Positions 1-11,741 of a stretch of DNA of 11,741 nt are shown here, piece after piece. The stretch covers positions 1 to 11,741 of the forward strand of contig DHIZ01000054.1 of the NCBI GenBank assembly GCA_002404055.1, given 5' to 3'. The first letter of the stretch is position 1. Each line of letters begins with the position of its first letter. This stretch comes from Chloroflexi bacterium UBA4733. GTDB lineage: Bacteria; Chloroflexota; UBA4733. The translations under genes and the position numbers were made by a program. Under the pieces are notes generated by a model. That model was not told where the DNA came from, searched no databases, and saw only the letters and a program-made list of their open reading frames with translations.

Positions 1-760
1 AGCGGCCGCCCTGCGGGCGTCGGCGGCACACCAGGCGCAACACCAGCGCAAGCAAGTGCTCCTCAATGTGGTTCTGGCTGAGGAACGCTTTCTTGGTCGA
101 CGCCGCCAGCGGCGGACGAGCCGGCAAGCCCAGGCGCTGCCGCAGCGACGGTACCGTCGGCACGGTCGGATCCGGCCACGTCGCTTCGGGAGGGAAACAC
201 GCCTCCAGGGTTTTGCGGTGATACCGCCCACAGGGCACCCGGAGCGCGATTGGCAGCCCCCGACTGCCGCAGGGCACGGTGGCTAAGGGCTCGTCCCAAA
301 ATAACTGTCGCATGCACGGCGTGCATCGCCACTGGTAGTGCCGCCAAACGTGAGACGGTTATTCCGTGGCAGGCCCTAACAGCACGGCAAACGGGTGGAA
401 GTACACCGTATCCAGCAGGATCGGCAACAGCGGCCGCTCCCTCGGCTGCTCCGGCAACCGCACGACCCATTCGTAGGTCAGCCGCACCCAACGCACACGG
501 CCGCCCTTCGGGCGTCGGCGCGCCAACTCATCCAGGTGCGGATTAGCCAACCAACGACCGAGCCGCTTCAGCCGACCGTGCAAGGAGTGCTGCGGCGCCG
601 GCAGCGCCCGCGCCAGATCCGACAGGCACAGACACGACCGATCCCAGAACGCCACCAGTACCTCCGCGCACGTCTGGTGCATCTCCTTCCGCCACGTCGG
701 CGCCAGATGCCGGGTGCCCTCTGGGCGCAACGTCACCACGTCTTCGATCGGTGGCATCAT
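1..760 (-). pseudogene. DDE-type transposase, interrupted by a small insertion and truncated at the window edge
   Basis: The minus-strand frame opens at an ATG pair at 760 behind an AAGGAG ribosome site and runs to an in-frame TAA at 359-361. The same frame then stays open without another stop to position 1. The first 133 residues look like the N-terminal part of an IS4-like DDE transposase: a helical region ending in SLHGRLKRLGRWLANPHLD, then LLPILLDTVYFHPFAVLL, where D117 may be the first catalytic Asp. After the stop the frame reads ATVPCGSRGLPIAL and later AFLSQNHIEEHLLALVLRLV, typical of transposase core and C-terminal helices. The stop lies inside a 93-nt insertion (284-379). Deleting it joins the two halves as FAVLLATVPCGSRGLPIAL. 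The gene would have mobilised an insertion sequence and is now probably inactive. The family assignment is from residue pattern only; the element's ends are not visible. Confidence 0.75.
284..379. mobile_element. Small MITE-like insertion with TAA target duplication inside the transposase gene
   Basis: TAA at 284-286 and TAA at 377-379 flank a 90-nt element (287-376). Its ends are imperfect terminal inverted repeats: GGGCTCGTCC at the left and, read inward on the other strand, GGGCCTGCC at the right. The symmetry continues inward without gaps: 300-309 (AATAACTGTC) pairs with 354-363 (GACGGTTATT) with one G.T wobble. Smaller hairpins lie in the middle: ATGCAC/GTGCAT at 312-326 and CACT/AGTG at 330-340. 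It has no coding capacity. Element plus one duplicated TAA is 93 nt, a multiple of three, so the host frame continues beyond it, but the element brings an in-frame TAA on the minus strand. The exact boundaries could shift by 1 nt because CTAA is also repeated at both ends. Confidence 0.75.
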
Positions 761-775: not shown

Positions 776-1082
776 CTCTCACTGCACGCTGAGGACTTTC
801 GAGCAGTGTGCCGGAGTCCCGCTCCCTTAGCAGCGATCAGCCCGCGTTACAAAATGGGGTACCGCAAGCAGCCCATCGCCATTGACTAGAGAGCCGCCAT
901 GCCATATCATTCCTGGAGCAAGGCAACCAACCCATACTCACCTGCTTCACCGGTTCGCACGTCGTATATTAGGGTCCAGGGGGCGCATGCCGAACGTGTC
1001 GTTTTGCGGCGCAGGATCCGCGACGGGACTAACCGGCGGGATCGTTAGCCCTTGGGGTGGTGGTCCTTGCCGGAGAATGACC

Positions 1083-1087
1083 GGAGG
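1083..1087 (+). promoter_or_regulatory. Ribosome binding site choosing the GTG start at 1095
   Basis: GGAGG sits 7 nt before the GTG at 1095. The in-frame ATG at 1077 lies upstream of it, and the GTG at 1089 is only 1 nt away, so the GTG at 1095 is the best-supported start. Confidence 0.6.
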
Positions 1088-1094
1088 TGTGCCA

Positions 1095-1832
1095 GTGGAC
1101 CAGTCGTGGCCCCGTCCCCTCCCGCCCATTCGTGGCGGCGAAGATGTCAGCGAGGTGCTGATCATCGATGCGCAACTCAACGACGGTCAGCTGATCGCTG
1201 CGAATGAGGTTATCCACATCCCGGAGCGGGGCTACCTCCCCCGGTTGCTGCTCAGCCCAGAGAGTACGCCCGACGACTACGAGCCCGTCGGCGGCGGGGT
1301 CGCCTTCGCCTACATCGGCCACGGTGGGACGCCGCTGGAACGACGGACGATGCAGGGCATCCGGATCGACGCCTTGGGCGATGGACGTTTCCGCTGGATC
1401 TACCCGGTCCGGGGAGAAAAGCTTCTCATCATCCTGCTCCTGCCGGATCAGCACACTGCGGACGACTACCAGCCTTTCCCCGTGGGGGCGAAGGCCTTTC
1501 GGGGACGCGTGGCCATCTACTGGCGGTTTTCGTTCAAGGATGACCCCGCCGAGATCGTCTGGCACGTGACGCCATCGGGGGGTGATCTCCGCGCCGACGT
1601 GGAGCGAGTGAACGCCGGCAGCGCCCGGTTGAGCCGCGAGCGAGACCAGTTCCGGACGGTGCTCACGCAGTTCCTGGACACGATGCAGCGGCAGAGTTTG
1701 GTGATGCATGTCGGTGAACTTACCTTAGGCGATCACTACGACATCTCGGGACAGGTCGGGGCGGCCGGGCGGGGGGCGGCGACCCGAGACAGCGTCTTCA
1801 TCCAACCACCCGGGCAGCCGGAGCAGAACTGA
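1095..1832 (+). CDS. Unknown protein with internal DDYxP repeat and C-terminal DISGQVGA motif
   Basis: I do not recognise the family. From the GTG at 1095 the protein has 245 residues and no signal peptide or membrane helix. Residues 1-170 look beta-rich, with an internal similarity: LLLSPESTPDDYEP around D60-P64 and LLLPDQHTADDYQP around D123-P127, 63 residues apart, as if a small domain had been duplicated. Residues 180-205 look helical and charged (ADVERVNAG...RLSRERDQFR). The C-terminus carries GDHYDISGQVGAAGR at residues 212-226 and ends about 20 residues later. The same motif occurs in the next gene, 84 nt downstream on the same strand, so the two are probably co-transcribed and act together. 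The frame is open further upstream to 882, so a longer protein cannot be excluded. The function is unknown; the shared motif suggests an interaction or assembly element. Confidence 0.8.
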   Translation: MDQSWPRPLPPIRGGEDVSEVLIIDAQLNDGQLIAANEVIHIPERGYLPRLLLSPESTPDDYEPVGGGVAFAYIGHGGTPLERRTMQGIRIDALGDGRFRWIYPVRGEKLLIILLLPDQHTADDYQPFPVGAKAFRGRVAIYWRFSFKDDPAEIVWHVTPSGGDLRADVERVNAGSARLSRERDQFRTVLTQFLDTMQRQSLVMHVGELTLGDHYDISGQVGAAGRGAATRDSVFIQPPGQPEQN

Positions 1833-1904
1833 GTCGCCCGAACGGCGTATCGTGCCGACACCCCTCAACATGCACACTGACCCATGGATCGGCACAGACG
1901 GATT

Positions 1905-1910
1905 GGAGAG
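1905..1910 (+). promoter_or_regulatory. Ribosome binding site choosing the ATG at 1917
   Basis: GGAGAG lies 6 nt before the ATG at 1917, whereas the in-frame ATG at 1884 has no comparable site. This supports the shorter start. Confidence 0.6.
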
Positions 1911-1916
1911 ATTGGA

Positions 1917-2984
1917 ATGGGGAGCGAGGGCCGACTCCACGAGCTCAGCGAGGAGTTCCGCGCGATGCTGCTCTGTGTCGGCACCGACCGCGGCGTCGAC
2001 AACGACGACCTGCGCACCATCCTCAGCTTCATCTCCGAGGTCGTCGAAGTGGTGGAGCAAGCCTTCCGTGACGTCTACCGGGTTCTGGTCGAACTCAAGT
2101 ACGTGGACGACGGGATTAGCCCCAAGCGCCGGCAGTACTTGCGCAAGCAGCTCGACCTGCTGCACATGCGCGATCGCTACCGGGATGCGAAGCAGATCTG
2201 CACCCGCCTACATTTCCTCAGTGAGCAGTACTGGCGCGAAATCGCGCCGGTGACTGTGGGGCTGGAGTACCAGGAGATGTTCAGGCTGGTGGACGAACAC
2301 GAGGGTCGCGTCATATACCTCGTCGAGGAAGCGACCGCCGAGTTGGAGCAGCTGTTGGCGCAGCCCGCCGAACCGGCAGGGCTGCGCCAACTCGCGAAAG
2401 TGGCGGCGCGAAAGGCGGAGGAAATCGCCGCCTCGCTCGATGAACTGCATAGCGTCCAGTATCGTATCATCGGCCTCTCCGGACGGCCGGGGCTGCTGGA
2501 GCTACTCGGGGCCGATCCCTCACTGGAACAGCGTGGGGTCATCGTCAAGGAGGTGCTCATGGGCGACCGGTTCGACATCTCTGGCCAAGTGGGGGCGATC
2601 GGGCGGCACGCCACTGCCACGGGCAACACGTTCACGCAGATCCGCTACGACGCCGGCGCGAAGGTGGATCCCGCCGCTCTGCAGGCGGCGCTCGCCGAGC
2701 TGCATGCGGCGCTCGGAGCGGCGGCGCTGCCGAGAGCCCAGGCGATCAGCGCCCAAACGGCGGTGGGCAACGCGCTCGAAGGCGGCGTCCAGAACGGCCA
2801 GGTGAAGCCGGAAGCGCTGGTGCCCAACCTCAAGAAGGCCGCCGCGACAGTCAAGCAGGCGAGCCTCGTGGTGCAGCAGGGTACCTCCCTCTGGGAGAGT
2901 GTGCAGAAGCTCGCCCCGCTCGTGGGGCCGCTCGTCGGTGGCGCGCACGTCGTCGCCGGCTGGTTTGGCATCCCGCTTCCCTAG
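1917..2984 (+). CDS. Unknown helical protein with central DISGQVGA motif and helical C-terminal tail
   Basis: The 355-residue protein starts at the ATG at 1917. Residues 1-200 are almost entirely helical and charged (for example EVVEVVEQAFRDVYRVLVEL and TAELEQLLAQP), with no enzyme motif that I recognise. GDRFDISGQVGAIGR occupies residues 216-230, followed by HATATGNTFTQI, a glycine, asparagine and threonine-rich stretch that may form a beta hairpin. Residues about 243-330 look like two or three Ala-rich helices, and the last 24 residues (LAPLVGPLVGGAHVVAGWFG and on) are hydrophobic enough to touch a membrane or pack in an assembly. The motif followed by a helical tail resembles C-terminal modules that I associate with bacterial TIR- or caspase-type conflict proteins, but I could not verify that. 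The upstream gene carries the same motif. No NTPase, nuclease or protease is visible in either gene. Confidence 0.85.
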   Translation: MGSEGRLHELSEEFRAMLLCVGTDRGVDNDDLRTILSFISEVVEVVEQAFRDVYRVLVELKYVDDGISPKRRQYLRKQLDLLHMRDRYRDAKQICTRLHFLSEQYWREIAPVTVGLEYQEMFRLVDEHEGRVIYLVEEATAELEQLLAQPAEPAGLRQLAKVAARKAEEIAASLDELHSVQYRIIGLSGRPGLLELLGADPSLEQRGVIVKEVLMGDRFDISGQVGAIGRHATATGNTFTQIRYDAGAKVDPAALQAALAELHAALGAAALPRAQAISAQTAVGNALEGGVQNGQVKPEALVPNLKKAAATVKQASLVVQQGTSLWESVQKLAPLVGPLVGGAHVVAGWFGIPLP

Positions 2985-3058
2985 AGCGCCGGTCCACTGT
3001 CCCCGCGTGGTTGGGAGACGCCGTGGCCCTCCACAAAACGCCCTGATCGTCCATCGTC

Positions 3059-3081
3059 AGCGCACGTCGTCCAGGTGCGCT
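3059..3081. repeat. Short hairpin between the motif-pair genes and the catabolic cluster
   Basis: AGCGCAC (3059-3065) and GTGCGCT (3075-3081) form a perfect 7-bp stem with a 9-nt loop. There is no T-run after it, so it is not a textbook intrinsic terminator. Its position, 75 nt after one gene and 73 nt before the next, would fit a weak terminator or an operator for the cluster downstream. Confidence 0.35.
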
Positions 3082-3153
3082 AGACTGGGAGGAAGGATGT
3101 TACGGCAGATGGAACGCAGGGCGATACTGGCAAAGAAAGGAAAGAGGGAGGTC

Positions 3154-4050
3154 ATGCGCGAAGTCCGCTGGGAGCGAATGTTCCATGACGAACTCGAAGC
3201 GGCATTCACGACGTGTCCGCTTGTGTACTTTGCATATGGCTTGTGCGAGCCGCACGGCCCACAGAATGTGCTTGGACTTGACACGCTGAAGGCGCACGCC
3301 ATCGCCTGCGCGGCGGCGCGGGAGCACGGCGGCATCGTGGCGCCTCCTGATTACTGGCACGTCCACGAGTTGGGCGGATACGCCGCTTGGGCCCACCGGT
3401 CGGTAGGGCAGGTAAAGCGGACGTGGTTGACCAGCGTGCCCCCTTGGGTTCACTTCAAGAACGTCTGCTACCAGTTGCGGGCGGGCGACGCCCTCGGCTT
3501 CCACGCCGCGATTCTGCTTACGGGCCATTACGGACCGAACTGGCAGGATCTCAAGACGCTCTTGGCCTTAGTTCAGCCATACGTGGGTATGCGACTGTAT
3601 GGCCTTCCTGATTATGAGGCCAACCAGCCTGGTTTTGCTGGTGACAATAGGAGCGGCGGCGACCACGCGGGAAGGGTGGAAACCTCCTTGCTCTGGGCGC
3701 TCCAGCCAGAATGCGTAGACGTATCGCGTCTGCCAGCGGTTGGAGATGATGGACCGCACTTTGCTATGGGCGCCAACGCTCGCCAGTCTAACCGCCTAGT
3801 GGGAGAACGGATGGTTGCCGACGAGGTGCGCTGGCTGGGCGACAAGGCGAAGGAGTTGTTGGCGGCCTACGATGCCGGGCAGCCGCAGAACCGATTACTG
3901 ACGTTCGAACAGGTTGAGATCCTGTGGGAGACGGTGGTGCGCCCGCACGTCCGGGAGTTCCACTCAATGCAAGAGCTCTTCCCCGACCAGCAGCCCGTTC
4001 CCCCCGACTCCGTTTGGCATGCAAACTGGCGAGTACCGGACCGTGCATAA
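3154..4050 (+). CDS. Creatininase-family metal-dependent amidohydrolase
   Basis: Members of this family are di-metal hydrolases that open cyclic amides or related C-N bonds (creatinine, FAPy products, peptide steps in mycofactocin maturation). From the ATG at 3154 the protein has 298 residues, a usual family length. Metal-ligand motifs are in order: E32 and H34 in CEPHGPQ, D43 in VLGLD, H125 in TGHYGPN (the family GHGGN motif) and E176 in HAGRVETS. The start MREVRWERM matches where family members begin. A purine-rich GAGGGAGG lies directly upstream but very close (2 nt); in-frame ATGs at 3097 and 3109 would add 19 or 15 residues of weaker composition. It precedes a sugar-type binding protein by 57 nt, so the substrate is more likely a sugar-derived lactam or amide than creatinine, which is inference. 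By eye, A/T-ending codons are commoner here than in the genes around it. Confidence 0.85.
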   Translation: MREVRWERMFHDELEAAFTTCPLVYFAYGLCEPHGPQNVLGLDTLKAHAIACAAAREHGGIVAPPDYWHVHELGGYAAWAHRSVGQVKRTWLTSVPPWVHFKNVCYQLRAGDALGFHAAILLTGHYGPNWQDLKTLLALVQPYVGMRLYGLPDYEANQPGFAGDNRSGGDHAGRVETSLLWALQPECVDVSRLPAVGDDGPHFAMGANARQSNRLVGERMVADEVRWLGDKAKELLAAYDAGQPQNRLLTFEQVEILWETVVRPHVREFHSMQELFPDQQPVPPDSVWHANWRVPDRA

Positions 4051-4097
4051 CGCCTCGCCTCGCGATTGGGTGGGTTGCCTTCTGCAGTAGCATAGAT

Positions 4098-4102
4098 GGA
4101 GA
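4098..4102 (+). promoter_or_regulatory. Ribosome binding site choosing the ATG at 4108
   Basis: GGAGA ends 5 nt before the ATG at 4108. It overlaps the in-frame ATG at 4096, which therefore has no ribosome site of its own. Confidence 0.55.
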
Positions 4103-4107
4103 ACGAT

Positions 4108-5697
4108 ATGCACAGCACGCGATACCCTGACTTCGCCCCTGAACACGGTCTCACTCGCCGGGGGCTCATCCGCGGCAGCCTCGCGCTGGGGGCGCTCGCG
4201 CTGCTCAGCGCCTGCGGTGGCACTACTGCCTCAGCAGTCACCGCACAGGCCAGCAACGTGACCGCCACGACTCAGTCGGCGGCCACGACGTCGAGCGCAT
4301 CCAGTAGGGCTACGGCGGCCACCACCAGTAGCGCGGCGGTTACAGCAGCCCCTGCCCCAACAGCCACCCAAGCGCCGACAGTGACGACGTCGTCGGTGAC
4401 GAGTTCGACAACGACCGTCGTGACCAACAGTGTGACCAGTTCGACGGCGGCCGCGACCAGCAGTGCGGCTGGCGCACGGTCGGCCATCAGCGCCTATTAT
4501 CTGACGACCGGCAACAAGGAGCAGGACAGCCTCTGGCCTGGTTTCTTCGCCCAGTTCAGTGCGGAGCAGCCTTCCATCACGGTCGAGGCCAGCGGCGCGC
4601 CCGACATGCTGCAGAAGCTCACCACACTGATCGCGGGGGGGACCCCGCCCGACTGGGCCTGGGACGACGGGCAGGATGTGGCGCCGCTGGGTTACAAGGG
4701 GGCGCTGCTCGACCTGGAGCCATATCTGGCGCGTGACAAAGTCCAGACGGATGCGTTCTGGCCGGGTGGCTGGGCTATGAGCACGGTGCGGGGGAAGCGA
4801 CTGGCCGTGCCGGTCAACATTGATCCCCAGATGCTCTTCTTCAATAAGAGTCTGTTCCAGGCGGCTGGGGTTTCGACGCCACTGGACTTACAAGCCGCGA
4901 AGAGTTGGGACTGGCAGCATTTCCGCGACGCGGCCGTCAAGTTGACCAAGCGGCCGCCGGGCACGACCGGTGCGGAGCCACTCGCCGACGTGTACGGCTT
5001 TGAGTTGCCGATCAGCCTGCCCTGGTCGCTGCCGTGGTTCCGCACGTGGGGCGGAGAAATCCTGAACGCCGACCTGACGCAGCCGACGCTCAGTTCGCCC
5101 GGCATGCTGGCTGCCGTGGAAGCATTTGTGGGGCTGTCGGTGCAAGATCGCTCCGCCTTCCCCCCGGGCATTCCCAAGGCGCCCAGCTTCATCGCCATGG
5201 AGCAGGCTGGGCGCGAGGCCATGGTCTGGGCCTGGGACTCGCGGGTGGCAATCTGGCGCGCTGTCCACTACGACTGGGACGTGATCGGTGTCGTGCCGAC
5301 GGCGACAAATGGCCCGCAGAGCCTGCTCGGCGGCAACCCGGCGTTCCTCTTCGCCGGCGCGAAGAACAAGGACGCCGCCTGGACGCTGAGCACCTGGTGC
5401 ATCACGGCAGCACCCAATCTTCAAATTGGCGTGGGCTACGGTTCGGTACCCAGCCTGCGCGCGAACCTCCCGACGTTTAAGGAGACCTTGCGCAAGCAAG
5501 GGAAGCCGGCGAACCTGAACGCCTACGATGAAGCGCTGCAAGTGGCCCAACCGACGCCTTCGACGCCTGCTTTCAACGACCTGCAGGCGGCCTGGGGCAA
5601 GGCCATCACGCCGGTCTGGCTCGGGCAGGCCGACCCGAAGACGGTGTTGGCATCACTCACGACGCAGTTCACGGCAGCGCTGGCAAAGTACGCCTGA
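4108..5697 (+). CDS. Sugar-type ABC transporter solute-binding lipoprotein with Tat-like signal
   Basis: The protein (529 residues) has a twin-arginine signal, LTRRGLIRG with R17-R18, a hydrophobic stretch and a lipobox LLSAC with the lipidated Cys at 36. It should be exported folded by Tat and anchored to the membrane. Residues 37-125 are a low-complexity Ser/Thr/Ala/Val linker with short repeats such as VTSST, much longer than the usual tether. The family 1 extracellular binding domain starts near residue 126 (AISAYYL) and shows typical features: MLQKLTTLIAGGTPPDWAW, VNIDPQMLFFNKSLFQAAG and WDWQHFRDAAVKLTK. It would capture a sugar or oligosaccharide for an ABC importer, but no permease or ATPase gene follows; a sulfatase follows after 36 nt. 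The neighbouring genes suggest a sulfated or fucosylated glycan fragment as ligand. Confidence 0.9.
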   Translation: MHSTRYPDFAPEHGLTRRGLIRGSLALGALALLSACGGTTASAVTAQASNVTATTQSAATTSSASSRATAATTSSAAVTAAPAPTATQAPTVTTSSVTSSTTTVVTNSVTSSTAAATSSAAGARSAISAYYLTTGNKEQDSLWPGFFAQFSAEQPSITVEASGAPDMLQKLTTLIAGGTPPDWAWDDGQDVAPLGYKGALLDLEPYLARDKVQTDAFWPGGWAMSTVRGKRLAVPVNIDPQMLFFNKSLFQAAGVSTPLDLQAAKSWDWQHFRDAAVKLTKRPPGTTGAEPLADVYGFELPISLPWSLPWFRTWGGEILNADLTQPTLSSPGMLAAVEAFVGLSVQDRSAFPPGIPKAPSFIAMEQAGREAMVWAWDSRVAIWRAVHYDWDVIGVVPTATNGPQSLLGGNPAFLFAGAKNKDAAWTLSTWCITAAPNLQIGVGYGSVPSLRANLPTFKETLRKQGKPANLNAYDEALQVAQPTPSTPAFNDLQAAWGKAITPVWLGQADPKTVLASLTTQFTAALAKYA

Positions 5698-5733
5698 CCG
5701 TGCGGCCGGGATGTCCCGATCGGAGGAGAGGCA

Positions 5734-7257
5734 ATGGCAACCAGCCGTCCCAATATCTTGTTGCTCATGAGCGATCAGCACAATGCGCGCTGCACCGGCT
5801 ACGCCGGTCATCCCGACGCCCAGACGCCGCACCTGGATCAACTGGCGGCGCAGGGAATCGCCTTCAATCGAGCCTTTGCCCAAAATCCCATCTGCACGCC
5901 GAGCCGGGTCTGCTACCTGTCCGGACAGTATCCCCACAACCACGGCTTCTACGGGCTGCTGGGGCAGGAGCCGGAACATCTTCCCTCGCTGTTCAGCCAG
6001 TTTCGGGCCGCCGGGTACTACACGGGTGCGATCGGGAAGATCCACACACCCTACGGGTGGATTGAGGCGCCGGCTGACGTCGTCCTGGACGCCTACGGTG
6101 ACGAAGCAGGCGCGGGGAAGAATGACTTCGATGACTACCTGCGCCGGATTGATCCGCGCTTGCTCGCCGATCGCGACGACACATACCTGCAGGAATGGAC
6201 GGCCACGGGACGCGGCGGGCAAGGCCTCGACGCGCGGCCCTCACGCTTGCCGTTCGCGCACTGCGTCGACCACTGGTGTGCGACGGAAGCGATCCGGGTT
6301 CTGGAGGAGCGACCCAAGCAGCAGCCGTTCTTGCTCTGGGTCAGCTTCCCGCGGCCACACGAAACCTATCTCCCTTCGACGGAGTTCTGGGAACTCTACG
6401 ATGAGGCGCAGTTGACCTTACCGCCCAGCGCCGATGAGCCCTTGACGGGGAAGCCTCCTAATCAGCGGCGGACACGCGAGGCGCAACGGGCTCCGAACAG
6501 CCCCATGTGGCTGTTCGAACCGCGCACCTACGAAGCCGGGCGACGACGGGTGCTGCGCGGCTACCTCGGCTGCGTCAGTCAGGTCGATGCCTGCGCCGGG
6601 CTGCTGCTCGAGTACCTGGCGAGTGCGAAGCTGACAGAAGAGACGCTGGTGGTCTACTGTGCCGACCACGGTGACTTCGCCGGCGAGCACGGCATCATCG
6701 AGAAGGCCCCCGGCCTCAGCTACGACGCCATCACCCGCGTGCCCATGCTCTGGTCCTGGCCAGGGCGATTCGCTGCGGGACAGCGCCGTGACGACTTGAT
6801 TGAGACGATCGACGTCTTCCCGACATTGTGCGAGCTCGCTGAACTTCGGGTTCCGCAGAGCGTCGACGGCCGCAGTCTGGCTCCGTTGCTGCGGGGAGAG
6901 ACGGTAGCCCCGCGTGAGGCAGTGTATACCGAGAACGCCTGGAGTAAGGCGATCCGGACGCAGCGCTGGAAATATGTGCATTACCCGCCGGACGTCTTCC
7001 CTGAGGAAGCGCGGCCGGTTGGCGAGCTCTACGATCTGGAGCGCGACCCCTGGGAAATGGACAACCTGTTCTACCGGGAGGAGCACCGAGCTGTGGTCGA
7101 GGAACTACGGGTCCGGCTGCTCGACTGGCTCGTCACGAGCAGTCGAGTGGCGAGCTACATGCTGGGCGACGGTGCGCGGCCACACGTACTGGGTGAGGAT
7201 CGCCGCGTCGCCCCGGCACTGTTGCGGGCGGTTCGCGCACCGCGCAACTATCTGTAG
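5734..7257 (+). CDS. Type I (formylglycine) sulfatase, apparently cytoplasmic
   Basis: This 507-residue alkaline-phosphatase-superfamily enzyme hydrolyses sulfate esters. The N-terminus RPNILLLMSDQH provides the metal-binding D14. The sulfatase signature CTPSR starts at C54, the cysteine that maturation converts to formylglycine, with R58 beside it. K102 and H104 lie in GKIH, D311 and H312 in ADHGD, and K324 in the following IIEKAP. The C-terminal part (GELYDLERDPWEMDNL) is typical of the family. GGAGGAGAGG ends 3 nt before the ATG. No signal peptide precedes the catalytic core, so the enzyme should act inside the cell. No formylglycine-generating enzyme or radical-SAM maturase is in the window. 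The overall pattern is close to choline sulfatases and arylsulfatases; the glycan neighbourhood makes a sulfated sugar more likely. A phosphonate monoester hydrolase is a less likely alternative. Confidence 0.92.
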   Translation: MATSRPNILLLMSDQHNARCTGYAGHPDAQTPHLDQLAAQGIAFNRAFAQNPICTPSRVCYLSGQYPHNHGFYGLLGQEPEHLPSLFSQFRAAGYYTGAIGKIHTPYGWIEAPADVVLDAYGDEAGAGKNDFDDYLRRIDPRLLADRDDTYLQEWTATGRGGQGLDARPSRLPFAHCVDHWCATEAIRVLEERPKQQPFLLWVSFPRPHETYLPSTEFWELYDEAQLTLPPSADEPLTGKPPNQRRTREAQRAPNSPMWLFEPRTYEAGRRRVLRGYLGCVSQVDACAGLLLEYLASAKLTEETLVVYCADHGDFAGEHGIIEKAPGLSYDAITRVPMLWSWPGRFAAGQRRDDLIETIDVFPTLCELAELRVPQSVDGRSLAPLLRGETVAPREAVYTENAWSKAIRTQRWKYVHYPPDVFPEEARPVGELYDLERDPWEMDNLFYREEHRAVVEELRVRLLDWLVTSSRVASYMLGDGARPHVLGEDRRVAPALLRAVRAPRNYL

Positions 7258-7344
7258 GGATGCCATCTCCGACAGCGCTCCCACCGTCGGACACCTCAGT
7301 GCTGAGCTTGTGGCAAACCGGACACCTGGAGAAAGGCAGCGAGC

Positions 7345-9309
7345 ATGAGTACACACACCGACAACTGGCACGACCTCGTCTTCTTCGGCATCCACTACGA
7401 CCTGCACGCCAACGCGCAGGATACCGAACTGGGACGGGAGGTGACTGCCGAACTGCTGCGCGAGGCCTGGCAGAAGATCCGGCCGGACTGGATCCAGTGC
7501 GATTGCAAGGGTCACCCAGGCTACACGAGCTGGCCGACGCAGGTGGGCACCCCTTCGCCCGGCATCGTGCGCGACGCACTGCGCATCCATCGCGACGTGA
7601 CGCGGGAACTGGGCATCCCGCTCGTCGTCCACTACTCCGGCGTCTGGGATACGGTTGCCATGCAACAGCATCCGGAGTGGGCCCGCGTCAACGCCGACGG
7701 GCAGCGCGACCCCGACAAGGCCTGTCTCACCGGCGGTTACGGCCCAGAGTTGATGGTCCCGCAACTGCTGGAGATCATCGACCGCTACGACGTCGACGGT
7801 TTCTGGGTGGATGGCGAGAACTGGGCGACGGCGCCCTGTTACTGCGAGCGCTGTCAGCGGCAGTTCGCTGACCAAGCGGCTGGGACCGTGGCGCCACGCG
7901 GGCCGGCGGAGCCAGGGTGGCAGGCGTGGCTGGCCTTCCAGCGCCGGGCCTTCGAAGCTCACGTGCGCCGCTACACGGAAGCCATCCATCAGCGCAAGCC
8001 CGGCTGCCTCGTCTGCAGCAACTGGATGTACTCCGTCCGGCAGCCGGAGCCGGTGACGGCGCCGGTCGACTTTCTGAGCGGCGACTTCAGCCACGCCTGG
8101 GGGCTCGAGCGAGCGCTGGTCGAGGCGCGTTTTCTGGCTAGCCGGGGAATGCCCTGGGACCTGATGGCCTGGGGTTTCACGACAGGCGAGAACCAGCAGG
8201 ATGGTTGGCAGTTCAAGACGGCCGACCATCTCTGCCAGGAAGTTGCCGAGGTGGTCGCCAACGGCGGCGCCGTCTGTGTTTATGTGCATCCGCCGCGCAG
8301 TGGCCACCTCATTGGCTGGCAGCACGACATCCTGGCCGAGGTCGCGCAGTTCTGCCGGGCCCGGCAGGCGGCAGCCCAGGGCAGCGTATCCGTGCCGCAA
8401 GCGGTGGTGCTGCACAGCCAGTCGCACTACTATGCCCACAACACCCCGCTCTACAACCCCGGCCAGGCCACGCAAGCGCTGGAGGGAGCACTCCACGCGC
8501 TGCTCGACACGGGCTATCACGCCGACGTGCAGAACGAGGAAGGTCTCCTGAGCCGGCTGGGCGAGTACGGCCTCGTCGTCGTCGCAGAGCAAGAGACGGT
8601 GCCGGAAGCAGTCGCGGCGGCGCTGCAGGCCTACGTCGAGTCCGGTGGCCGGCTGGTGCTCAGCGGCGCAGGCGTCGCCCGCCAGCCAACCCTGGCCCGG
8701 CTGGCGGGCGTGGAGGCTGCCGGGGAGCCCCGTACGGGCTTCCACTACCTACCCGTGGCTACGGCGGCCGTCACCGTCGCCGGCCCCTGGCAGCCGGTGG
8801 CGCTGCGCGGCGCACGGGAGTGGGCGCGGCTCCTGGCGATCCCCGAGCCGGCGCAAGCCAGCGTGGGTACGGCCATCTCGCTCCGCGAGGTCGGCAGCGG
8901 GCGCGTCGCCGTCATCCATGGCCCCGTCTTCGCCGCCTACTTCCGCACGCACTACCCCTTGCTGCGTGCTCTCTTGCGGAGCTTGTTTCACGAAGTCTGG
9001 CCGGACCCGCTGGCCCAGGTGGAGGCGGCTGGCGCTGTCGTCCACACCGTGCGCCGCCAGCCCGGTCGGACTGTGGTCCACATCCTCAACCGGAGCGTCA
9101 CCCCGGCCACGTCTCCGCGCAATGTCAGTGTCGAGCGTGTGCCGCCGGTGGGGCCGGTGACGCTCCGCCTGCGCCTTCCCGCACGGCCGGCCAGCGTGCA
9201 GGTGGTCCCAGGCGGTCAGGACCTCGACTGGACGTGGGACAGCGGCGTGGTGCGCGTCCGGCTGCCCCAGGTCCACATTCACGCGGCGGTGGTGGTAGAA
9301 GAGGGATAA
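7345..9309 (+). CDS. Glycoside hydrolase, alpha-L-fucosidase-like TIM barrel with beta-galactosidase-type trimerisation domain
   Basis: The 654-residue protein starts behind GGAGAAAGG (8 nt spacing). Residues 1-330 look like a TIM barrel of the GH29/GH151/GHL6 kind: FFGIHYDLHANAQDTELG near the N-terminus and YDVDGFWVDGENW around 148-160, where D156 may be the catalytic nucleophile. A cysteine cluster CYCERC follows at 165-170. Residues about 350-470 resemble the class-I-amidotransferase-like trimerisation domain of family A beta-galactosidases (GLVVVAEQETVPEAVAAAL, then ESGGRLVLSGAG). The C-terminal 150 residues are beta-rich. No signal peptide is seen, so it would act on imported oligosaccharide. 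This architecture is described for GH151 fucosidases, but fucose specificity is inferred. The 87-nt gap upstream contains two small hairpins (7268-7291 and 7295-7306) of unclear role. Confidence 0.8.
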   Translation: MSTHTDNWHDLVFFGIHYDLHANAQDTELGREVTAELLREAWQKIRPDWIQCDCKGHPGYTSWPTQVGTPSPGIVRDALRIHRDVTRELGIPLVVHYSGVWDTVAMQQHPEWARVNADGQRDPDKACLTGGYGPELMVPQLLEIIDRYDVDGFWVDGENWATAPCYCERCQRQFADQAAGTVAPRGPAEPGWQAWLAFQRRAFEAHVRRYTEAIHQRKPGCLVCSNWMYSVRQPEPVTAPVDFLSGDFSHAWGLERALVEARFLASRGMPWDLMAWGFTTGENQQDGWQFKTADHLCQEVAEVVANGGAVCVYVHPPRSGHLIGWQHDILAEVAQFCRARQAAAQGSVSVPQAVVLHSQSHYYAHNTPLYNPGQATQALEGALHALLDTGYHADVQNEEGLLSRLGEYGLVVVAEQETVPEAVAAALQAYVESGGRLVLSGAGVARQPTLARLAGVEAAGEPRTGFHYLPVATAAVTVAGPWQPVALRGAREWARLLAIPEPAQASVGTAISLREVGSGRVAVIHGPVFAAYFRTHYPLLRALLRSLFHEVWPDPLAQVEAAGAVVHTVRRQPGRTVVHILNRSVTPATSPRNVSVERVPPVGPVTLRLRLPARPASVQVVPGGQDLDWTWDSGVVRVRLPQVHIHAAVVVEEG

Positions 9310-9333
9310 GGATTTGCAAAGAGGAGGCTGCCC

Positions 9334-10191
9334 ATGCGATCAGGCGTGGTGGGGATGATGCCGGCGGCGGTGGCAGATATCACCGCTGCTACTGCCGACC
9401 GGCTCCGAGATCTGGGCTTCAGCGGTGTCACGGTGATTGTCCCGAACCCGCTGGAAGCGAGGCGCGAGGAGTACGAGCGCGCCGGCGCCATCCTGCGCGA
9501 CGGCGGCATCAGCGTGGCCCAGGCTAACCCGCGTTACGAGATGCTGGTGCAGCCCGACGACGACCGGCGGGCGCTGGGCATCCGCCAACTGCAGGCGGCC
9601 TGTCGCTGCGCCGCCTGGTTGCAGGCTGCCACGGTGTACGTGCGTCCCGGCAGCCTCAACCCCGCCGGACCCTGGACCCCAGCGCCAGGAAACACCAGCC
9701 TGCGGACGCTCATGCGCCTGGTCGATACCCTGCGGCAAGTGGTTCCGGTTGCGGAGGACGTGGGCATCCCTCTCGCTATCGAAGGGGCGTCCACCAGCCC
9801 CCTGGATACACCGGAGCGAGTGCGCGACTGCATCGAGGCGGTGGGTTCCCCGGCGCTGCGCTTCAACGCCGATCCGGTGAACTTCGTGCGCTCGCTGGAT
9901 GAGCTGTACGACACCACGTCGCTGATCGACCGCCTCTTTGACTGCTGTGGACGCTACACTGTCATTGGGCATGCCAAGGACATCACCTATGACAACACCC
10001 TGCCGGTGCGCATGCGAGAGTGCCCCCTGGGGACGGGGCTGTTCGATCAGGAGACGTATATGCGGCGCTTCGAGCGCTGCTGCCCCGACGGCTTCATGCT
10101 GATCGAGCATCTGCCGGATGAGCAGATCCCAGCCGCCAAGCAGCAACTGGATAGGGTCATGGAGCAGGCCGGCTTGACGTGGCAGGCGTAG
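9334..10191 (+). CDS. Sugar phosphate isomerase/epimerase family TIM-barrel protein
   Basis: This 285-residue protein belongs to the xylose-isomerase-like/AP endonuclease 2 fold group, which includes sugar isomerases, epimerases and inosose dehydratases using a divalent metal. Likely ligands are spaced as expected on successive strands: E150 in LAIEGA, D180 in FNADPVNF, H213 in IGHAKD and E258 in LIEHLPDE. The start at 9334 follows AGAGGAGG closely, and the gene begins 24 nt after the glycoside hydrolase, so the two are very likely co-transcribed. It would isomerise or epimerise the sugar released by the hydrolase, or an oxidised derivative made by the dehydrogenase that follows 29 nt later. 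The exact substrate cannot be read from sequence. Confidence 0.85.
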   Translation: MRSGVVGMMPAAVADITAATADRLRDLGFSGVTVIVPNPLEARREEYERAGAILRDGGISVAQANPRYEMLVQPDDDRRALGIRQLQAACRCAAWLQAATVYVRPGSLNPAGPWTPAPGNTSLRTLMRLVDTLRQVVPVAEDVGIPLAIEGASTSPLDTPERVRDCIEAVGSPALRFNADPVNFVRSLDELYDTTSLIDRLFDCCGRYTVIGHAKDITYDNTLPVRMRECPLGTGLFDQETYMRRFERCCPDGFMLIEHLPDEQIPAAKQQLDRVMEQAGLTWQA

Positions 10192-10208
10192 ACGCGAACA
10201 TGGTAACT

Positions 10209-10212
10209 GGAG
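10209..10212 (+). promoter_or_regulatory. Ribosome binding site choosing the ATG at 10221
   Basis: GGAG lies 8 nt before the ATG at 10221, where short-chain dehydrogenases normally begin (MRLQGKVVLITG). The in-frame ATGs at 10179 and 10200 lack such a site. Confidence 0.55.
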
Positions 10213-10220
10213 TGTACGGA

Positions 10221-10961
10221 ATGCGTTTGCAGGGTAAGGTGGTGCTGATCACCGGTGCGGCCAGCGGTATCGGCCTGGCGGCGGCACAGGTCTGCGCCGA
10301 AGAGGGGGCGGCCCTGGTGCTGGCCGACTTGCCAGCCGCTCCCGGTCTTAGCGCCCTCTCGACGTTGGGGGGAACGAGCAGCCCGGCGCTCGTCGTGCCG
10401 ACCGACGTGACGGACGCTGCAGGTTGCCTGGCGCTGGTTGCGGCGGCGGAACGGCGCTGGGGACGTATTGATGCCCTGATTCACGCCGCGGGGATTATGC
10501 AGGGCGCCTTTGTGCCGGTGGACGAGCTTGACCCGGCGACCTTCCGGCGCGTGATCGAGGTGAACCTGATCGGCACCTTCCACATGGTCAGGGCGGTCGT
10601 CCCGGCGATGCGCCGCCTCAGTCGCGGTACCATTGTGCTCATCACTTCCGGCGCCGGCGTCGTCGGCGGCAGTTCATCGGTTGCCTATGGCGCCAGCAAG
10701 GGCGGCGCCCATGGCCTGATCCTGGTGCTGCAAGAACAGCTACGCCAGGCCGGCATTCGGCTCAACGAGGTCTGTCCCGGCGGTGTCGACACGCCACTGA
10801 AGCGCCAGAATGTCGCCGACGGCGCCCGGGCCGCCGGACGGTCGGTAGAAGAAGCGCTAGCCAATGCGCACCTCGTCGACCCGCGTGGCGTGGCACGAGT
10901 GCTGGCCTTCCTGGCGTCCGACGACGCAGACTACGTGCGGGGCGCGGTGTTTACGCGTTGA
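10221..10961 (+). CDS. Short-chain dehydrogenase/reductase, possibly with a frameshifted C-terminus
   Basis: This 246-residue classical SDR oxidises or reduces an alcohol with a nicotinamide cofactor. The glycine motif TGAASGIG is at 11-18, and D36 after the second strand favours NAD over NADP. The structural NAAG motif is HAAG at 88-91. N115, S143, Y156 and K160 (YGASK) form the catalytic tetrad with the usual 13-residue Ser-Tyr spacing. It follows the isomerase by 29 nt and probably oxidises a sugar in the same pathway. The protein stops at GAVFTR, just where family members normally continue with a VDGG-like motif. Removing one G in ACGCG near 10955-10958 would give GAVFTVDD, so a single-base frameshift, natural or from sequencing, may have shortened the end. 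Otherwise the gene looks intact. Confidence 0.9.
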   Translation: MRLQGKVVLITGAASGIGLAAAQVCAEEGAALVLADLPAAPGLSALSTLGGTSSPALVVPTDVTDAAGCLALVAAAERRWGRIDALIHAAGIMQGAFVPVDELDPATFRRVIEVNLIGTFHMVRAVVPAMRRLSRGTIVLITSGAGVVGGSSSVAYGASKGGAHGLILVLQEQLRQAGIRLNEVCPGGVDTPLKRQNVADGARAAGRSVEEALANAHLVDPRGVARVLAFLASDDADYVRGAVFTR

Positions 10962-11023
10962 CGACACTGAAGAGACGAGGGGGGCGGGCGACAACGGTGA
11001 TGAACTGCGCGGAGATCGTCCAT

Positions 11024-11142
11024 CCCGCCCGGCGACTGAAGTCGCGGGCTAGTCCAAGCGAAGCCCGCCTCCGCGGGCTGGGAACGAGTCCGCGCAGGCG
11101 GACTTTGCGGCATGTAGCCCGCGACTTCAGTCGCCGGGCGGG
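11024..11142. repeat. Cloverleaf-like inverted repeat element
   Basis: A 27-nt left arm (11024-11050) and a 27-nt right arm (11116-11142) are perfect reverse complements. Each arm also contains GCGACT/AGTCGC, so it can fold on itself. The 65-nt space between them holds two perfect 7-bp hairpins with 4-nt loops: AGCCCGC/GCGGGCT (11062-11079) and AGTCCGC/GCGGACT (11087-11104). The whole can fold as a three-stem cloverleaf in DNA or RNA. It has no coding capacity and no clear target duplication. It lies 62 nt after the dehydrogenase stop and 44 nt before the E1 gene. It looks like an interspersed REP/MITE-type element that could also limit read-through between the two units. Confidence 0.85.
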
Positions 11143-11186
11143 ACGCCGCGGATAATACCGGACCACGTACAAAGAAAGGTCACTCA

Positions 11187-11741
11187 ATGGCAACGCTGGC
11201 CGAAGTCCCCACCGCGCCTATAGAGCGTCACGGGCTGTCCGATCAGCAACTGCTCCAGCTCTACGCCACGATGCTGCGCATCCGGCGCTTTGAGGAGCGA
11301 GTGAAGGCGCTGTTCCTGGAGGCGCGGCTGTATGGCAGCGTCCACCTGTACATCGGGGAGGAAGCGGTGGCCACCGGCGCCTGTGCTGCATTGCGCGATG
11401 GCGATGTGATCTCCAGCACGCATCGCGGCCACGGTCACTGCATCGCCAAGGGCTTAGAACTGGCGCCGATGATGGCGGAACTCATGGGCAAGGTGACGGG
11501 CTACAACCTGGGCAAGGGTGGCAGCATGCATATCGCCTCGCTCGACCACGGCATGCTGGGCGCCAACGGCATCGTGGCCGCCGGCATCCCCATCTCCACC
11601 GGAGCGGCGCTCGGCTTCTGGGTGCGCGGCTCGCCGGAGGTGGCGCTCTGCTTCTTCGGTGACGGCGGCGCCAACCACGGCGCCTTCCACGAGGGCATCA
11701 ACTTCGCCGCCACCCTCAAGCTGCCGGTGGTGTTCGTCTGC
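11187..11741 (+). CDS. Thiamine-diphosphate dehydrogenase E1 alpha subunit (pyruvate/acetoin/2-oxoacid), partial
   Basis: The first 185 residues of a protein that normally has about 320-350 are visible; the frame runs off the window end. E1 alpha pairs with E1 beta to decarboxylate a 2-oxoacid (or cleave acetoin) and pass the acyl group to a lipoyl E2. Recognisable parts are LRIRRFEERV, HLYIGEEAVATGA, the THRGHGH loop at 78-84, GKGGSMH, GANGIVAAGIPISTGAALG and the thiamine-diphosphate motif GDGGANHG from G158 on. The window stops just where the metal-binding Asn of the motif (usually ENN) would follow FVC. The start is an ATG 7 nt after AAAGG. It lies beyond the cloverleaf repeat, so it may be a separate unit; the E1 beta gene would be expected next. 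Whether the substrate is pyruvate, acetoin or a branched-chain acid cannot be decided. Confidence 0.93.
   Translation, partial: MATLAEVPTAPIERHGLSDQQLLQLYATMLRIRRFEERVKALFLEARLYGSVHLYIGEEAVATGACAALRDGDVISSTHRGHGHCIAKGLELAPMMAELMGKVTGYNLGKGGSMHIASLDHGMLGANGIVAAGIPISTGAALGFWVRGSPEVALCFFGDGGANHGAFHEGINFAATLKLPVVFVC

Follow-up and report, generated by a model that had tools for sequence, protein, structure and literature searches.

A short motif shared by two adjacent genes marks a glycine-rich C-terminal tail, a candidate assembly motif of accessory proteins

Two adjacent genes in the 11,741-nucleotide stretch of DNA analysed here (the window) share a short motif that forms the front of a C-terminal tail. 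This tail is spread over several kinds of N-terminal part, and at two loci it occurs on neighbours that carry a matched variant. Our preferred reading, held tentatively and at slightly less than an even chance, is that the motif belongs to a tail through which accessory proteins, probably of defence systems, assemble, and by which the product of gene 1 would join that of gene 2. Contact between the two proteins, a sensing partner, killing or damage as the outcome and a role in defence are all steps that we infer from the findings below.

RESULTS

The shared motif and the layout of the gene pair

The features of the window that bear on the pair are the following.

882 to 910, forward strand: promoter-like site ahead of gene 1, TTGACT-17-TATCAT (weak, with 1 found against 0.4 expected in shuffles)
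1095 to 1832, forward strand: gene 1 (P0001), 245 aa, with a predicted beta-rich domain, a helix and a motif-only C-terminal tail (search, poor model)
1710 to 1805, forward strand: gene 1 half of a 32-residue match, residues 206–237, with the 15-residue core at 1728–1772 (BLASTP, motif profile)
1917 to 2984, forward strand: gene 2 (P0002), 355 aa, with a predicted helical N-domain, the motif and a predicted helical C-domain (search, AlphaFold model)
1917 to 2561, forward strand: helical N-domain of gene 2, residues 1–215, recurring at loci L001–L004 (genome scan, model)
2544 to 2639, forward strand: gene 2 half of the 32-residue match, residues 210–241, with the 15-residue core at 2562–2606 (BLASTP, motif profile)
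2631 to 2963, forward strand: helical C-domain of gene 2, residues 239–349, common to P0003 and P0008 and diverging from the usual tail (search, model)

The motif reads GDHYDISGQVGAAGR at residues 212–226 of gene 1 and GDRFDISGQVGAIGR at residues 216–230 of gene 2, with 12 of 15 residues and 35 of 45 bases identical, whereas the best 15-residue window in 2000 shuffled protein pairs never exceeded 9 of 15. Seven of the 12 common residues use the same codon and five use synonymous ones, and such synonymous changes between paired motifs point to selection that has long acted on the protein sequence. A BLASTP comparison of the two proteins gave a single significant match (17 of 32 residues identical, E 2e-7), the remaining alignments listed all having E 3.8 or worse. 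These analyses confirmed the observation of an earlier, sequence-only reading of this DNA, namely the position and identity of the motif, the synonymous differences at Ser, Gly, Gln and Val, to which Asp is now added as a fifth, and the lack of likeness between the rest of the two proteins. A motif profile built from 46 strict-pattern tail cores, with P0001, P0002 and P0003 left out, scored gene 1 at 16.7 bits and gene 2 at 31.7 bits, compared with 7.4 and 4.6 bits, respectively, for the best of 1000 shuffles.

The genes are separated by 84 bases, and a purine-rich stretch lies ahead of both start codons. No second promoter-like site was found within 850–3250, and thus none between the genes, which are likely, as we judge from this layout, to be co-transcribed. 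Neither gene gave anything above cut-off in Pfam, NCBIfam or the PADLOC defence models, and Foldseek with the predicted models returned no match at E 0.001.

A protein search with gene 1 returned two entries, one being gene 1 itself in a longer form starting from ATG 1077 (protein record P0009) and the other its sole distant relative found, P0010, having two hydrophobic stretches at the place where gene 1 bears the motif. The gene 1 model (mean pLDDT 51, 3 sequences) has a beta-rich domain, a helix at residues 174–199 and a tail without structure. A helical domain after the motif is absent, as the protein ends 8 residues past the profile match.

For gene 2, the protein search found six relatives besides itself, and a genome scan with the alignment of these relatives found four loci (L001–L004), from Nitrospirae, Gemmatimonadetes and Acidobacteriia MAGs and from Nitrosomonas sp. 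Nm166. In the three MAG loci, a form of the motif comes after the helical N-domain and leads into some 80 residues that include a conserved KWALDVATK stretch; in the Nitrosomonas genome no motif match was found. None of the four loci has a gene 1 relative near the gene 2 relative. The motif is lacking from the relatives P0005–P0007 and L004, and other tails were seen in P0005 (residues 222–323), P0006 and L004:7983-9020, that of P0006 being of a second type, GDTYNLTGDFREGVLNIRSTL followed by helices. The C-terminal part of P0005 matches the PADLOC candidate PDC-M14B (E 2.9e-5).

The AlphaFold model of gene 2, made from a shallow alignment of 15 sequences, falls below pLDDT 50 across residues 217–244, where the motif lies, with a helical domain on either side; the second of these domains (239–349) is largely above pLDDT 85. 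The model therefore puts the motif in a low-confidence region and not in a rigid enzyme core, a placement that the earlier reading had named as counting against it, with the apparent disorder resting on the shallow alignment. The profile of the tail described below matches the gene 2 C-domain only partially (profile positions 2–77 of 122), and the form of the motif in P0008, which has the same C-domain, went unscored by the motif profile (−1.3 bits).

The motif is the front of a tail on proteins of many kinds

The shared motif proved to be the front of a C-terminal tail, approximately GDxYxxGQAGA[MV]GPxAxAxxxTFxQ followed by a helical domain, many tails reading GAMGP or GAVGP. Searching with the Gemmatimonadetes tail alone gave 56 proteins from 673 candidates within a restricted length range; 46 of these fit the strict core pattern and the remaining 10 are more divergent. 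When the N-terminal parts of 66 proteins (the tail proteins together with relatives of the window genes) were grouped, they fell into 24 groups. Three of these were pairs and 15 were singletons; six of the singletons, with fewer than 100 residues remaining, may be fragmentary. The largest groups were those of the P0015/P0022 kind (15 proteins), the gene 2 kind (14) and the P0017 kind (5), followed by AbiTii (4), PF27061 (4) and the gene 1 family (3). The PF27061 label was taken from precomputed database matches and was not reproduced when we scanned one of the members ourselves. Two tail proteins carry a pentapeptide label, from precomputed or our own Pfam matches. No Pfam model for the tail was found in the tail proteins scanned, nor any from PADLOC, and the literature searched held no published description of it. 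Judged by sequence, the tail is promiscuous, joined to apparently unrelated N-terminal modules of many kinds. The sequence-only reading had seen a danger in the motif belonging only to a large housekeeping domain; what we found was a motif recurring in the tail of proteins with varied N-terminal parts, AbiTii included.

Tail genes on phages and plasmids and across genomes

On the viral contig L105, an AbiTii-plus-tail gene (L105:7122-8342) lies near portal and scaffold genes. On a second viral contig, L106, a tail gene of the P0022 kind (L106:7404-8369) lies on the opposite strand inside a structural module, flanked by a tail-terminator gene and by a gene adjoining that for the major head protein. 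The L107 result is the same as that of L106, and a similar gene occurs in both L108 and L100. The position of the L105 and L106 tail genes within phage structural modules resembles that of accessory cargo genes.

The tail was also found near transposase genes on a Hymenobacter plasmid, between transposases without an annotated gene on an Azospirillum plasmid, and on a conjugative Paenarthrobacter plasmid, where the tail gene stands beside matches to type IIG restriction-methylation and DrmD models. In the last case (L155:6224-14309) the tail gene adjoins a methyltransferase-like pair and a DrmD-like helicase gene; the two methyltransferase-like genes, which flank an IS3 transposase gene, match separate parts of one type IIG model.

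Genome sampling covered four phyla. Matches were found in at least 2 of 200 genomes with the motif alignment, in at least 4 of 396 and at least 1 of 198 in further sets, in at least 1 of 109 within the family of the L116 genome (see below) and in 0 of 398 in another set, all tallies being lower bounds, as 11 to 36 first-pass candidates were scored in most genomes. Every set except that of 398 includes the matching genome used as its centre, and this centre was the only match in the sets of 198 and 109. Such patchy occurrence fits mobile accessory genes, and it is from the company kept by tail genes that a role in defence is suggested.

The earlier reading had placed transposon debris beside the locus, which was not confirmed: two upstream reading frames had no Pfam match at E 0.001, and one of these frames, as well as bases 1–900 as DNA, had no match in the plasmid collection. 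Downstream of the pair, the window at 3154–11741 holds genes for a creatininase, a solute-binding protein, a sulfatase, a glycoside-hydrolase-like protein, a xylose-isomerase-like barrel, a short-chain dehydrogenase and an E1 dehydrogenase, and is thus a catabolic region rather than a defence island, which weighs against the preferred reading. A 23-base direct repeat (window 3–25 and 498–520, 96% identical, 495 bases apart) was also noted in the upstream stretch.

Neighbouring genes with matched motifs

At each tail-gene locus, the other reading frames were scanned for any 15-residue stretch resembling the motif already present there, giving 14 rows and, as L107 repeats L106, 13 distinct loci. 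A second motif gene was present in two of these, the window and L116 (best 12 of 15), while in the other 11 the best other stretch matched at 6–8 of 15. Since these 11 lack a second motif gene, the tail must also work alone. The counts are to be read with the contig ends in mind, L105 ending about 1 kb and L108 about 0.3 kb past the tail gene, so that a downstream partner could be missed there. The motif profile also missed the tail of L155 itself, and divergent partners may therefore be missed too. L156, outside the 13-locus scan, had no second match to the motif profile.

L116, sampled within the phylum of the Acidobacteriia locus, has three motif genes (a, b and d) on one strand within 5.3 kb. 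Gene a encodes 769 residues with hydrophobic stretches at 13–31 and 693–711 and the motif near the C-terminal end; gene b, which overlaps the end of gene a, encodes 157 residues comprising the motif and the helical tail; and gene d, separated from b by a single intervening gene, encodes 463 residues with another N-terminal kind followed by motif and tail. The a and b motifs agree in 12 of 15 residues, 9 of those 12 being in different codons, and in 28 of 45 bases, and the a–d and b–d pairs agree in 10 of 15 residues each. The variant at L116 is GGQQGAVGD, as opposed to DISGQVGAxGR in the window. The gene a motif was found by eye, the original profile not reporting gene a below E 0.05 and the later profile that reports it having been built with this motif included. 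Within L116:4259-13772 the three motif genes are accompanied by genes for a HEPN/Toprim protein, a pentapeptide-repeat protein and a 327-residue protein without a Pfam match.

When compared with 65 other motifs, that of gene 1 is closest to gene 2 by a narrow margin (score 74; next 70 and 67), and the top two for L116 gene a are b and d. In the reverse ranking the pairing is weaker: the best match of gene 2 is its relative P0003, and gene 1 comes seventh; for L116 gene b, L119 ranks first and gene a next; and for L116 gene d, its relative P0061 leads, followed by a and then b. Matching of this kind within a locus could also have arisen if the motif was transferred locally long ago. Both motif-only proteins seen, gene 1 and L116 gene a, adjoin and match a gene with motif and helical domain. 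The interpretation offered in the sequence-only reading is partly supported: L116 has the same layout with a variant of its own, whereas 11 of 13 loci have one motif gene and L001–L004 lack a gene 1 relative.

DISCUSSION

The proposed assembly tail would be a mobile C-terminal element in which some 30 glycine-rich residues lead, in most cases, into a helical domain of about 80 residues. It would be joined to numerous N-terminal modules, unrelated to one another, in accessory genes that probably serve in phage defence. At rest, the motif would be loose in both proteins. A trigger would then reach the beta-rich domain of gene 1, whereupon the motifs of genes 1 and 2 would dock or stack together and cluster gene 2, one of whose helical domains would thereby be switched on, for example against the membrane. 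That L116 gene a is a predicted membrane protein, and that P0010 has hydrophobic stretches at the motif's place, suggests gene 1 as the sensor or anchor and gene 2 as the executor, the direction being a guess. The notion of a sensor–effector conflict pair, put forward in the sequence-only reading, is favoured by L116, by the AbiTii tails and by the tail genes in phage modules, but no TIR, caspase or NACHT/STAND Pfam domain was matched in the window proteins scanned, and single motif genes prevail at 11 of 13 loci.

A broader version, which we regard as possible but rather doubtful, is that the tail represents a plug-and-socket class of assembly motif, apart from the death folds and the described BASS classes, in which locus-specific variants would wire motif-only sensors to executors in mobile anti-phage loci of several phyla, with phages carrying them as cargo. 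The sensors would be membrane proteins or soluble (L116 gene a, gene 1), and the executors would include gene 2, AbiTii and many unnamed domains.

Most tail genes standing alone, as 11 of 13 loci have it, would suit a self-oligomerisation element, such as a trimeric beta-roll like the YadA head, that forms homo-oligomers and is shared by neighbours through local shuffling of tails. The GxxAxA spacing of the tail is by eye similar to that of the YadA head, and P0008, having the C-domain of gene 2, was the sole protein to match YadA_head (PF05658), weakly and below cut-off (E 0.083). Genes 1 and 2 gave no such match at E 1, however, and matched variants at two loci, kept through synonymous change, exceed what plain shuffling predicts; we consider this explanation unlikely. 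We also find it improbable that the two proteins use the motif to bind, each on its own, one shared third molecule, which might be a nucleic acid, a product of the phage, or a chaperone or protease of the host. A fixed ligand would account for a short motif strongly conserved across unrelated N-terminal parts, but it predicts one consensus, as opposed to the locus variants DISGQVGAxGR and GGQQGAVGD.

The alternative that we rate lowest is amyloid signalling of the BASS or RHIM type, with a cross-beta seed templated from one protein to the other: the motif does hold Q-V-G and has low model confidence, but in gene 2 it precedes a folded helical domain, and the proline of the many GAMGP and GAVGP tails would be unusual in a cross-beta core. 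The RHIM core is [IV]Q[IVL]G; genes 1 and 2 both read GQVG and so depart from this RHIM/PP core, with G preceding Q.

Many accessory proteins without annotation bear the tail, including some encoded by phages and plasmids. Should it act as an assembly motif, sensor–effector pairs could be recognised from matched tails alone, and the system would join RHIM and BASS as a natural setting in which to test how parallel signalling pathways are kept separate by short motifs.

Among known systems, the EADs, bacterial Death-like and TRADD-N domains are, in the passages cited, small adaptors found on many effectors and thought to join homotypically (PMC8195603). The tail resembles the EADs in being one module on many effectors (PMC8195603, PMC7159879), and differs in that EADs are described in those passages as helical folds whereas the tail core is glycine-rich, a comparison made through Pfam profiles and description. 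AbiTii is otherwise described, in the part of the source cited, as fused to HEPN domains (PMC3710099); here, 4 of the 56 tail proteins as well as that of L105 are AbiTii plus tail, and genes 1 and 2 have no AbiTii match (PF18864 or PADLOC).

The closest comparison is with BASS, described in the cited portions of the literature as short motifs, of several sequence classes, common to neighbouring gene products in NLR/Bell pairs (PMC7889193, PMC8086366). Genes 1 and 2 share with these, as far as those descriptions go, adjacent genes bearing the same short motif and a helical partner domain (PMC7889193, PMC8086366, PMC12261475), and this layout is the part of the proposed amyloid-signalling likeness that stood. 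By contrast, no NLR, and thus no motif copy at an NLR N-terminus, was found beside them by Pfam in the window proteins scanned, the helical domain follows the motif in most carriers, and the motif gene is often alone in its locus. The gene 1 copy is C-terminal, but the gene 1 domain is modelled, at low confidence, as beta-rich, where BASS has the Bell domain. The window motif is set apart from the BASS classes by description, not by comparison of motif sets. As the defining NLR partner was looked for and not found, we do not file the gene pair under BASS, although by analogy it may still work like a BASS pair.
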